In this document: positions 49,896-52,751 of the stretch, in pieces
Numbering within the stretch: the stretch's first letter is position 1
Layout: the number at the start of each line of letters is the position of its first letter
Assembly (NCBI GenBank): GCA_024222295.1
Contig: JAAEPF010000023.1
Location: 124,001-188,000 of the forward strand
DNA: 64,000 nucleotides
Direction: 5' to 3'
Source: Actinomycetes bacterium
Lineage (GTDB): Bacteria; Actinomycetota; Acidimicrobiia; Acidimicrobiales; Microtrichaceae
Notes under the pieces: model-generated
Told to the model about the DNA's origin: nothing
Seen by the model: the letters and a program-made list of their open reading frames with translations, nothing else
Databases searched by the model: none
Made by a program: the position numbers and the translations under genes

Positions 49896-51494
49896 TCAGC
49901 AGGTGGCCGCGGCACCCGGCACGGTGATCGTGTCGCGCAAGCTTCCTTCGACGTAGAGGTCGAAGCGGTACTCGGTCGCCACGCATGAACGCGGAGTCTG
50001 GAAGGAAGCGCCGTCGCCGGATGTGGGCGGGCCGATGTAGTAGATCTCCTCGGGCTGCACCCAGCCGGCATCGCCGCCCGGGTTCTCGTACCCGGCGATC
50101 ACGATCGTGTCCTGCTCATCGAGCCCTTCGAGCTGCACGTTGACCGAGGTGATGCCCTCGTCGTACGAGGCCGTCGCGCTGGCGATGCGGGCATCCGGCG
50201 AAGCGTCGGTGCCGGCGCGGTCGGAACGGTTCGCAGTGAGGGCAGCGACAAGGTCGCTGGTGAACTCCGCCGCCAGATCAGCTTGATCGGGCGTGGTTGC
50301 CGCAACGTGCTCGAGCAGGGTGATGTACTGCGCCGCCAGCGAGCGGCCGCGCTCGACTCCCACATCGCCGAAACGCGTCACGGCCTCCTCCAACCATTCT
50401 TCCGCCGCCTCGGCATCACCCTGCGCGACGGCCACGGCCGATCGCCACAGGTACAGCTCCGCGGCCAGCTCGTTGAGGGCGATGCCCTCCTCGATCCGCG
50501 TTGCCGCCTTGTCCCAGTCGGCTTCGCCGACCGCCGCGATCGAGGCTACGGCGAGCAACAGCGGGTCCTCATCGCCGCCGGCGGCCAGTGCAGCGGCGAT
50601 GTCGGCCTCCACGGCATCGAATACTTCGGTCGAGGTGTCGGTGAACGCAAGCGTGGTGAGCAGGTCCGGGTTCGCAAGCGCCATCCGGGCGAGGGCGCGC
50701 GCCTGCAGGGCCTCGACGTAGTCCGGAGTGGCTTCGAGGGCCTCGTCGTACTCGTCGATGGCCTCCTGCGCGGCACCGGTGCCCAACAGGTACTGGCCCT
50801 TGGCTGTGGCGCTGATGGATTCGGCCGCGACCTCGGGGGTGGGCTTGTAGTAGATCTGCAGTGCCCAGCCGGCGCAGATGACGGCGAGGATGAGGCCCGG
50901 TACGGCAACGGGTGGCCGGAGCTTGCGGCCCAGCACGAGGGTGAAGCCCACCAGGAAGATCGCCACTGCCAGCACGGTCAGGACCGTCTCGTACTGGGAC
51001 GCCTTCGCGTTCCAGCTCACGCGCTGCTCCACCGTGAGCTGTTGTTCGAGCGACAGCTCGTTGGCGCTGATCTCGAGCTCGGCCGCGACCGTGCCGTCGC
51101 CACCGAGAGCCTCTTCCAGGCTGTCCGCTGCTTGCTGTTGGCGTTGCGCCGCCCGGTCGGGGTCAGTGGCAACTCCGTATTCCTCGGTGACCGTTGCTGC
51201 GTCGCCGAACACCGGGCGGATCGTCAGCAGCTCCAGTTCCGCGTCGACCTGGTCGAGGCCGGTGTTGACGCCCTTTGACAGCACGTCAGCGGTCTGTGAC
51301 TCCGAGGCCAGCCTCGTGGCCTGGCGGGCCGCGGTGGACTCGTTGGTTGCGGCGTTGGTGGCCAGCACCGCGATCCACGCCCCGAGTACCGCGAGGGTGG
51401 CCAGCGAGATGCCGATGCGTCGCTTGAATCGCCTCTCGGCCGGCGTGGCCTGTGGCTCCTGGTCGCCCGGCTGGTTCTGCTCGTCGTCGACCAT
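49896..51494 (-). CDS. unknown membrane protein with TPR-like C-terminal region
   Basis: The 532-residue protein has a helix at about 27-46, an outside-facing helical region with many Gln/Glu/Ala, two helices at about 168-187 and 193-210, and then a TPR-like array (EALEATPDYVEALQARALAR and ELYLWRSAVAVAQGDAEAAE). It ends with an Ig-like or beta-rich tail containing two cysteines. No family is recognised. The start overlaps the stop of the upstream gene (ATGA), so the two work together. The TPR region probably binds another protein. Confidence 0.72.
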   Translation of the reverse strand: MVDDEQNQPGDQEPQATPAERRFKRRIGISLATLAVLGAWIAVLATNAATNESTAARQATRLASESQTADVLSKGVNTGLDQVDAELELLTIRPVFGDAATVTEEYGVATDPDRAAQRQQQAADSLEEALGGDGTVAAELEISANELSLEQQLTVEQRVSWNAKASQYETVLTVLAVAIFLVGFTLVLGRKLRPPVAVPGLILAVICAGWALQIYYKPTPEVAAESISATAKGQYLLGTGAAQEAIDEYDEALEATPDYVEALQARALARMALANPDLLTTLAFTDTSTEVFDAVEADIAAALAAGGDEDPLLLAVASIAAVGEADWDKAATRIEEGIALNELAAELYLWRSAVAVAQGDAEAAEEWLEEAVTRFGDVGVERGRSLAAQYITLLEHVAATTPDQADLAAEFTSDLVAALTANRSDRAGTDASPDARIASATASYDEGITSVNVQLEGLDEQDTIVIAGYENPGGDAGWVQPEEIYYIGPPTSGDGASFQTPRSCVATEYRFDLYVEGSLRDTITVPGAAATC

Positions 51495-52237
51495 CAGAAC
51501 ACCAGTGAGAACGTCGTGACCGACACGACGATGTAGATGACCGAACCGACGGCGAACATCGCCCGGCGGGTGACGATGCGGGGCGTCAGCTCCGCAACTG
51601 TGTAGGCGACCACGGCGAGCAGGAGCAGCAGGGCGGCCACGCGCAGCGACCGCACCTGCTTGCGTGTGGTGTCGGCCTGGGTGGCCCATCCGTCGGGGTC
51701 GAGCACTCCCGGTGAGGTGATCCCGGTGCTGACGGCGGCCTCGTTCTCGGTGAGGGCCTGGTCGAAGTCGAACGGCACCGGCTCGGTGGGGTCAGCGACG
51801 ATCTGCGCGAGGAGTGTCTGGTCGCCGAACACGCCGACTGCCTGTGCCTCACCGGTGGCGGCGGTGCGTTCGTCGTCTGCTTGGTCCCGAAGGCGTGCAG
51901 CGACCTCGGCGAGACCTTGCTCCTCTGCCTCGGCCGCCAGGTCGTCGAGGGCGGCGGCCTCGGCGAAGTCGGCCACGTATGACACATACGCCACGGAGTC
52001 GTTGATGGTCGCGAGGCCTGCCTCGCTGACCTGCTGCTGCTGGGTGATCGTCTGGCCGACCGACTGGCGGTCCTCGAACGCTGCCGCTGACGCCAGCTGG
52101 CCGGCACGCCAGGTGACCACACCTGCGGTGATGGTGACGAGGCCGATCAGCAGTGGCACCAGCCACCCGGGGATCAGCCGTCGGTGTTCGTCGGGGGGTG
52201 TGTGTTCGTCTGGGGTGGGATCGTTGTCGTCGGGCAT
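51494..52237 (-). CDS. unknown membrane protein, partner of the TPR protein
   Basis: The 247-residue protein has a helix at about residues 22-43, a long Ala/Glu/Gln-rich helical region outside the membrane (QSVGQTITQQQQVSEAGLAT), and two or three C-terminal helices (VRSLRVAALLLLLAVVAYTV and AMFAVGSVIYIVVSVTTFSL). The layout of helix, helical bundle, helix pair is the same as in the first half of its downstream neighbour, suggesting paralogues. It is not recognised; a sensor-like or scaffold role is a guess. It heads the two-gene unit and is divergent from the rhodanese gene. Confidence 0.7.
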   Translation of the reverse strand: MPDDNDPTPDEHTPPDEHRRLIPGWLVPLLIGLVTITAGVVTWRAGQLASAAAFEDRQSVGQTITQQQQVSEAGLATINDSVAYVSYVADFAEAAALDDLAAEAEEQGLAEVAARLRDQADDERTAATGEAQAVGVFGDQTLLAQIVADPTEPVPFDFDQALTENEAAVSTGITSPGVLDPDGWATQADTTRKQVRSLRVAALLLLLAVVAYTVAELTPRIVTRRAMFAVGSVIYIVVSVTTFSLVF

Positions 52238-52308: not shown

Positions 52309-52328
52309 ATACCCTAGGGGGTATAAAT
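52309..52328 (+). promoter_or_regulatory. CsoR/CstR-like operator over a -10 element
   Basis: The 16 bases ATACCCTAGGGGGTAT form a pseudo-palindrome of GC tracts flanked by AT, the type bound by CsoR-family repressors (copper-sensing CsoR, persulfide-sensing CstR). It overlaps a strong -10 box TATAAAT (52322-52328), so binding would block transcription. The rhodanese gene begins 25 bases downstream. No CsoR-family gene is seen in this window, so the regulator must be elsewhere; the assignment rests on motif similarity. Confidence 0.5.
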
Positions 52329-52352: not shown

Positions 52353-52751
52353 ATCCGACTGTTTCTGCTTGCGCTGGCTGGTTTTGCTCTCGTAGTCGCC
52401 GGCTGTTCGAGCGACGACGAATCGTCCGGCGCCGGGTCGGATGTGCCGTCGCCCGGGGTGCCGGCCGCAGAACAGGCGCTGGCCCAGGACCGCACCGTGA
52501 TTGATGTGCGCACGCCGCAGGAGTACGCGGTTGCTCACGTCACCGACGCGGATCTGATCGATGTGCAGGACCCGACCTTCGCCGAACGCATTGCCGAACT
52601 CGACCCCAGCGGCGAGTACGTCGTGTACTGCCGCAGCGGCAACCGCTCTGCTGTTGCCGCTCAGTCGATGTCCGAGGCCGGACTCGACGTGTGGGACGGC
52701 GGCGGCCTGACCGACATGGAGGCCGCGGGCTGGCCGAGCACCTCCGGCTGA
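52353..52751 (+). CDS. rhodanese-domain lipoprotein with non-canonical start
   Basis: The frame encodes a lipoprotein signal directly before the rhodanese domain: IRLFLLALAGFALVVAGCSS, with lipobox VAGC. The domain shows DVRTPQEYAVAH and the active-site loop VYCRSGNRSAVAA, whose cysteine takes up sulfane sulfur. No ATG, GTG or TTG lies in frame between the upstream stop (52302) and the signal. The best start by position is ATC at 52353 with GAGG four bases upstream; a CTG at 52359 is possible. A start at GTG 52443 would lose the signal. A missing base after GTG 52348 would also restore a normal start. It may handle persulfide or thiosulfate outside the membrane. Confidence 0.7.
   Translation: MRLFLLALAGFALVVAGCSSDDESSGAGSDVPSPGVPAAEQALAQDRTVIDVRTPQEYAVAHVTDADLIDVQDPTFAERIAELDPSGEYVVYCRSGNRSAVAAQSMSEAGLDVWDGGGLTDMEAAGWPSTSG

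Follow-up and report, generated by a model that had tools for sequence, protein, structure and literature searches.

The question raised by this locus is what kind of membrane system is encoded by two overlapping genes on the minus strand of contig JAAEPF010000023.1 (GenBank assembly GCA_024222295.1, Acidimicrobiia), of which positions 124,001 to 188,000 were analyzed; this whole stretch of 64,000 nucleotides (nt) is referred to below as the window. The initial annotation, made from the letters alone, described a two-gene membrane module belonging to no recognised family, and took it for a duplicated sensor or scaffold whose second copy had gained a tetratricopeptide repeat (TPR)-like protein-binding arm. 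Here both proteins are shown, on the evidence of profile comparison, to be divergent relatives of the DUF4337-type proteins with three transmembrane (TM) segments, and gene 1 and gene 2 are shown to form a co-inherited, closely spaced pair. The two open reading frames (ORFs) are as first described and overlap by 1 nt, gene 1 encoding 247 and gene 2 encoding 532 amino acids (aa) (Table 1). Genomes, contigs and loci used for comparison carry our working numbers (G, C and L).

The relation to DUF4337 is best seen in profile-profile comparisons with a set of 24 stand-alone proteins from Actinomycetota, for which we have coined the group name DUF4337-like and which extends beyond the Pfam model of DUF4337 (PF14235). 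Gene 1 (12 sequences) scored 73.0 against this set (probability 96.8, 195 columns) and the N-terminal part of gene 2 (12 sequences) scored 60.0 (probability 95.1, 174 columns), the similarity running along most of the length of the DUF4337-like proteins. Reversed controls reached 28.6 for gene 1 and 29.8 for gene 2, and the top of 60 local shuffles 29.5 and 30.8, respectively. Twelve other families, which were mostly membrane proteins, included eight single sequences and several labelled by eye, and were not picked for the same topology, scored at most 25.0; the CPA2 antiporter, which neither protein resembles, gave 15.4 with gene 1 and 25.0 with gene 2. The tie to the DUF4337-like group was retained when only near members of the pair were used (58.4 for gene 1, 42.0 for gene 2) or only distant ones (51.7 and 56.6). 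In a whole-genome search the gene 2 profile also found the DUF4337-like protein of G435 at 2.4e-6.

The Pfam model itself sees little of this. Neither window protein has a match above cut-off in Pfam or NCBIfam; PF14235 scores gene 2 at 19.6 bits as a whole and at 21.5 bits over its N-terminal part, below the gathering score of 27, and does not match window gene 1. Among the gene 1 members scanned there was one sub-threshold match (E 0.011, in a set of six proteins), while the N-terminal parts of gene 2 were matched at E ≤ 0.5 in six of ten members, the best being G469 with 25.2 bits. A scan of 296 phylum genomes with PF14235 put two proteins above cut-off (G109 and G573); that of G435 was borderline (25.7 bits; 26.8 on rescan) and that of G421 weak (19.3 bits), the Pfam rescan listing no DUF4337 match for the latter at E 0.05. 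A profile made from these four proteins found matches in 41 of 346 actinomycetotal genomes, a count which includes the four query suppliers, the gene 2 homologues of G469 and G461, the weak matches of G374 and G338, the partial ones of G493 and G630, and G350 with an internal stop. Only three of the 24 DUF4337-like proteins are matched by PF14235 at E ≤ 0.01, and the Pfam model thus spans a small part of the group. The initial view that the two proteins belong to no family therefore stands as far as Pfam cut-offs are concerned, but not at the level of profile comparison, where both group with the DUF4337-type proteins. It should be noted that the genome of the window also has a stand-alone DUF4337-like gene (G000:C34:45812-46396; L121:3762-4415; E 8e-20).

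The same relation is seen in the membrane topology. Besides the first TM segments listed in Table 1, hydropathy places TM2 and TM3 at residues 200–218 and 228–246 of gene 1 and at residues 171–189 and 196–214 of gene 2. The loop between TM1 and TM2 is long and acidic (157 aa with a net charge of −18 in gene 1, 125 aa and −14 in gene 2) and the loop between TM2 and TM3 is short and basic (net +3 in both), and because of this distribution of charge the positive-inside rule predicts an inner N-terminus and an outside helical domain for both proteins. The remaining 318 residues of gene 2 after TM3 are likewise predicted to lie outside, and the predicted cytoplasmic portion of either protein consists of the N-terminal tail and a loop of 4–12 aa only. 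This order of TM1, acidic outside domain, TM2, short basic loop and TM3 was present in all 11 complete gene 1 proteins, in all 12 gene 2 proteins and in all four DUF4337-like proteins checked, in which the outside domain measures 125–130 aa. Most DUF4337-like proteins are about 200–240 aa long once long ORF starts are trimmed, and unlike gene 2 they have no added TPR and beta domains. AlphaFold2 models of each protein gave the same order of elements, with helices at residues 26–106, 110–134, 181–217 and 221–246 of gene 1 (predicted local distance difference test, pLDDT, 74; predicted template modelling score, pTM, 0.42) and at residues 18–96, 112–130, 135–188 and 197–215 of gene 2 (pLDDT 76, pTM 0.68). 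In both models a first helix of about 80 residues carries TM1 outward, the chain returns via shorter helices, and a second long helix enters TM2. The membrane module of the initial annotation, and its shared architecture of a helix, an outside helical bundle and a helix pair, are thereby confirmed.

Searches with gene 1 and with gene 2 each retrieved the same six of 61 related genomes, i.e., that of the window, G001, G016, G011, G021 and G003, a co-occurrence beyond what chance would give. The genes are adjacent in five of these; in G021 the two halves lie at the ends of two contigs, which is compatible with adjacency, and the partial gene 2 match on G021:C170 was retained as a sign of a split pair. 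A class-wide scan of 296 genomes added G140, G181 and G256 together with the low-scoring G295 and G112 (gene 1 of the latter was missed by the scan and found on inspection of the locus), the pair of G469 came from the DUF4337 search of the 296 phylum genomes, and that of G461 from scans of 316 phylum genomes. Twelve genomes thus carry both genes on one contig, always gene 1 followed by gene 2, G021 being the thirteenth. Ten junctions were measured, of which one overlaps by 1 nt, five overlap by 4 nt and four are spaced by 1 to about 20 nt (approximate in G003, where the position taken for the gene 2 start lacks a start codon). In the phylum sample gene 1 was present in seven of the 316 genomes, counting G506 and G061, and gene 2 in five, after subtraction of three weak matches and one DUF4337-like match; the pair extends past the class yet is sparse. 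Frames are broken in gene 1 of G256 and in gene 2 of G181 and G461. G061 (L087:4951-5484) has an apparent relic of the module: the beginning of gene 1 passes there into sequence which, inspected by eye in a different frame, reads as the final residues of gene 2. Weak matches of the gene 1 profile in G225, G323 (on score and length only) and G038 (histidine-kinase-like by eye), and of the gene 2 profile in G195 (efflux-like by eye), G428, G086 and G440, were excluded from the counts.

What sets gene 2 apart is its C-terminal extension. Residues of about 222–410 match solved TPR proteins with Z scores of 16.6–16.8 over 142 residues at 1.9–2.5 Å for the best matches listed, a fold match which bears out the TPR-like array first proposed. 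The Pfam model TPR_16 gave 24.6 bits in window gene 2, under its cut-off of 32.7, and 34.6 bits, above it, in the G011 orthologue. A sequence search of the PDB with gene 2 returned TPR proteins and designed proteins containing or resembling TPR, and nothing convincing for gene 1 or for the DUF4337-like profile. The resemblance to the TPR proteins of the PDB (PilF, PilW, MamA, YrrB; TPR_16 and related) lies in the helical repeat array and spans essentially the TPR part, while the array of gene 2 ends a three-TM protein and is predicted to be outside. Residues 436–519 were modelled as the strands of a beta domain, for which Pfam and PDB profile searches gave nothing convincing. The cysteines noted in the tail, Cys504 and Cys532, were both kept in all ten main-type genomes read, which span at least two classes (the window, G001, G016, G011, G021, G003, G140, G256, G469 and G181, the last in its own second frame; the shorter gene 2 of G112 was excluded from the alignment). 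This conservation, together with the predicted outside location, suggests that Cys504 and Cys532 may form a disulphide.

Known systems offered no match beyond this. No family of the anti-phage defence collection PADLOC-DB 2.0.0 was found for either protein up to E = 1, PHROGs gave nothing better than E = 0.067 for the window proteins, and a plasmid collection held no match to the N-terminal part of gene 2 or to a DUF4337-like protein. With the gene 1 model, Foldseek/VIA-align brought up helical bundles of many unrelated kinds, namely subunits of pore-forming toxins (best Z 12.8), chemoreceptors, Smc arms and BAR domains, and these were discounted. In agreement with the initial annotation, these searches and those of Pfam and NCBIfam returned no known chemoreceptor, secretion or stress system. 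Judging by their titles, the mentions of DUF4337 in the literature searched are incidental, and no function was given there; nothing in that literature joined Microthrixaceae with tetratricopeptide.

The explanation that fits best as a whole, and which we hold with moderate confidence, is that the pair forms a two-protein extracytoplasmic scaffold or adaptor complex. Gene 1 and gene 2 proteins would be made together and would associate via their TM segments and outside helices into a hetero-oligomer, each with the N-terminus inside and a TM1 helix extending into an outside helical hairpin before TM2 and TM3, and with the TPR and beta parts of gene 2 outside. A partner, whether protein or peptide, would then be held on the outward side of the membrane by the TPR groove of gene 2 and by its beta domain, which a disulphide probably closes, and the complex would act as a scaffold or adaptor and not as a transmembrane signal transducer; in some Microthrixaceae this partner may be the neighbouring CPA2 cation/proton antiporter or may act on it. 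Such a membrane anchor with an outside partner is favoured because neither a catalytic nor a cytoplasmic output domain was found. Mutual binding of the two proteins, the disulphide and the identity of the partner are what we infer here.

Several observations weigh against this reading. The gene 1 profile matched four DUF4337-like loci at E 0.3 or worse; in the genome of the window neither gene 1 nor gene 2 was among the matches of the DUF4337-like profile at E 0.001, PF14235 had no match at 0.001, and the gene 2 profile found gene 2 only, neither gene 1 nor the relative on C34. Since plain profile searches fail for gene 1, its tie to DUF4337 rests on profile-profile comparison and topology. 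The gene 1 model is weak by its pTM and the beta domain is poorly modelled (block pLDDT 35–77), and the cysteine pair is absent in the distant-type G295 and G461, though their C-terminal domain is otherwise alignable. In G506 gene 1 is cut by a contig end and then followed by an isocitrate-lyase-like ORF (by eye), with gene 2 not among the matches listed for this genome in the scan of 316 phylum genomes, whose listing names only part of the genomes sampled. Gene neighbourhoods differ, no partner gene being conserved beyond the Microthrixaceae trio described below among those surveyed. The direct match of gene 1 to gene 2 is unstable: thin profiles gave no alignment, profiles of ten and eleven sequences gave a probability of 22% in local and 4% in global mode, and the match obtained with twelve sequences each dropped to 1.4% without the distant members and to 14.5% with distant members only.

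This last comparison bears on whether the pair arose by tandem duplication, in either direction, with gene 2 gaining the TPR arm later. The two genes are adjacent and of the same topology, and with twelve sequences each they gave a collinear match of 212 columns with a score of 39.7 and a probability of 67%, against a maximum of 27.3 in 60 shuffles and 21.5 and 19.2 for reversed profiles. The search for paralogy thus gave a signal with the full sets and background in the subsets. Each gene is moreover nearer to the stand-alone DUF4337-like proteins than to the other, and a local duplication, for which the support is indirect, appears possible but doubtful. We conclude from the profiles that the common ancestry of gene 1 and gene 2 probably runs through the DUF4337-like group, and that a local duplication, as initially proposed, is not demonstrated.

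A rather unlikely extension of the scaffold reading would be that the DUF4337-like proteins make up a broad and mostly unannotated superfamily of three-TM proteins with an outside hairpin, and that two of them have in this lineage become the halves of an obligate heteromeric receptor in the envelope. Its TPR arm would catch partner proteins outside the membrane, e.g., to gate or position a cation antiporter; we know of no counterpart to an outside TPR adaptor complex of this kind. The antiporter enters through the gene neighbourhood, which was surveyed with gene calls from a simple GC-frame script and with ten neighbours run through Pfam. Directly upstream of the pair, and on its strand, G001 and G016 both have a TrkA-C-like gene and one for a CPA2 antiporter (Na_H_Exchanger). 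The same two genes (identified by Pfam) lie upstream in the window, with an opposite-strand rhodanese gene between them and the pair; we take the antiporter and the TrkA-C protein to be KhtT/KhtU-like. It is thus conceivable, if quite unlikely, that the pair are accessory or regulatory subunits of this KefB/KhtU-like antiporter and its TrkA-C protein, sensing the outside or holding the antiporter in an assembly. In L014 the antiporter (by Pfam) is separated from gene 1 by 78 nt, and 63 nt beyond gene 2 the window has a gene for a Na/Ca exchanger. However, the arrangement is found in only three of the six family genomes; G011 and G021 have DUF2252 upstream instead (by Pfam and by eye, respectively) and G003 an oxidoreductase-like ORF (by eye), and inspection by eye of six more distant loci, where only some neighbours were run through Pfam, revealed no antiporter near the pair. 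Among these other neighbourhoods, G140 has a molybdopterin oxidoreductase, in G469 the pair is flanked by genes for a PAS-GGDEF-EAL protein (upstream) and a sigma-70 factor (downstream), and G256 has MscL about 2 kb from the pair. In L051 (G295, by Pfam) and L052 (G112, by eye) the genes ahead of the distant-type pair are those for a NiFe-hydrogenase large subunit and a HycI-type maturation protease, followed by a small unassigned ORF. The neighbour survey yielded the antiporter in the Microthrixaceae trio of the window, G001 and G016, and no partner was seen to be conserved more widely.

Between the two functions first offered for the module, the scaffold fits better, and the sensor is unsupported because no cytoplasmic output domain was found. 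In a transmembrane sensor the outside helical domain or the TPR arm would bind a ligand and the helices would relay the signal to the inside, the way chemoreceptors and sensor kinases do. The gene 1 model does match chemoreceptors with Z of about 10 (9a65_A, Z 10.5, root-mean-square deviation 7.7, 195 residues aligned), and TM1 belongs to a long helix that extends into the outside domain; according to the tool's own note, however, Z values under about 13 may reflect just a common helical-bundle arrangement. With no HAMP, kinase or other output domain detected by Pfam in the pair members scanned, so little of the chain predicted to be inside, no conserved partner gene seen in the neighbourhoods, and a single HAMP-sensor control scoring at most 16.0 in the profile comparison, we regard a sensor as very unlikely. 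Least probable of all is a small channel or transporter in which three-TM subunits oligomerise into a pore capped outside by the TPR part: three TM segments and a long helical outside part would suit it, and a Bestrophin-like gene (PF14023) stands beside two of 30 DUF4337-like loci, but one of these is the locus of the query itself and the other gene is partial at a contig end, phmmer with one Bestrophin-like protein found none within about 1.5 kb in the other 28 loci (distant relatives would escape), and no channel is prominent among the structure matches listed for gene 1. The functional alternatives thus rank as antiporter accessory, sensor and channel. At the query locus (G435, L067:4420-5894) the DUF4337-like gene overlaps the Bestrophin-like gene (6e-30) by 4 nt, and in L095 (G364) the partial relative of the latter precedes the DUF4337-like gene. 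No neighbour gene shared by the DUF4337-like loci was seen by eye in 20 of them.

Table 1. Features of the gene pair, with positions in the window.
Feature	Position	Strand	Basis
Gene 1, three-TM DUF4337-type membrane protein	51494..52237	-	ORF with stop
Gene 1 TM1 (aa 24-42)	52112..52168	-	hydropathy
Gene 1 extracytoplasmic helical domain, predicted (aa 43-199), net charge -18	51641..52111	-	hydropathy/charge and model
Gene 1 TM2-basic loop-TM3 (aa 200-246)	51500..51640	-	hydropathy/charge
Gene 2, three-TM DUF4337-type protein with TPR arm and beta domain	49896..51494	-	ORF with stop
Gene 2 TM1 (aa 27-45)	51360..51416	-	hydropathy
Gene 2 extracytoplasmic helical domain, predicted (aa 46-170), net charge -14	50985..51359	-	hydropathy/charge and model
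Gene 2 TM2-basic loop-TM3 (aa 171-214)	50853..50984	-	hydropathy/charge
Gene 2 TPR array and following helices (aa 222-424), predicted outside	50223..50831	-	model and structure alignment
Gene 2 C-terminal beta domain (aa 436-532), low-confidence model, conserved R.DLYVEG-like stretch near end	49899..50189	-	
Cys504 codon, gene 2	49983..49985	-	kept in 10/10 main-type genomes read
Cys532 codon, gene 2 last residue	49899..49901	-	kept in 10/10 main-type genomes read
TGATG overlap, gene 1 stop/gene 2 start (..TTC[TGA]TGG..)	51492..51496	-	junction reading

Upstream of gene 1, between it and the rhodanese ORF (52443–52751), lies a perfect inverted repeat ATACCC-N4-GGGTAT (52309–52324, +/−), which did not occur in 100 shuffles and has three sites in the whole genome against none in the backward control; among 69 loci it was present in copies of the locus of the window only. 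It resembles operators of the CsoR/CstR type. Another of the sites, at position 3310 of L144, lies immediately upstream of the gene for a thioredoxin-like protein (L144:2901-3275). According to passages of PMC10318464, rhodaneses are often under repression by CstR homologues; the same paper gives TACNNTACNNNNGTANNGTA for a CstR-like protein. The candidate repeat may control the rhodanese, gene 1, or both. Within the rhodanese region (52380–52751, +; PF00581, 4.4e-12) the ORF is preceded in frame by a lipoprotein-like stretch which ends in a VAGC lipobox-like motif and in which no usual start codon could be discerned by eye.

Taken to the level of the family, two proteins without a Pfam name are now placed in a single superfamily, of which Pfam apparently captures just a part, as is seen from the contrast between the 41 of 346 genomes reached by the profile of four relatives and the two of 296 with PF14235 matches above cut-off, the two samples being different. 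The DUF4337-like kind of protein is already known but uncharacterised, and the paired, TPR-armed form is the new part. Such a co-inherited pair with a predicted outside TPR arm offers a testable two-gene handle on a family to which the literature searched assigns no function.

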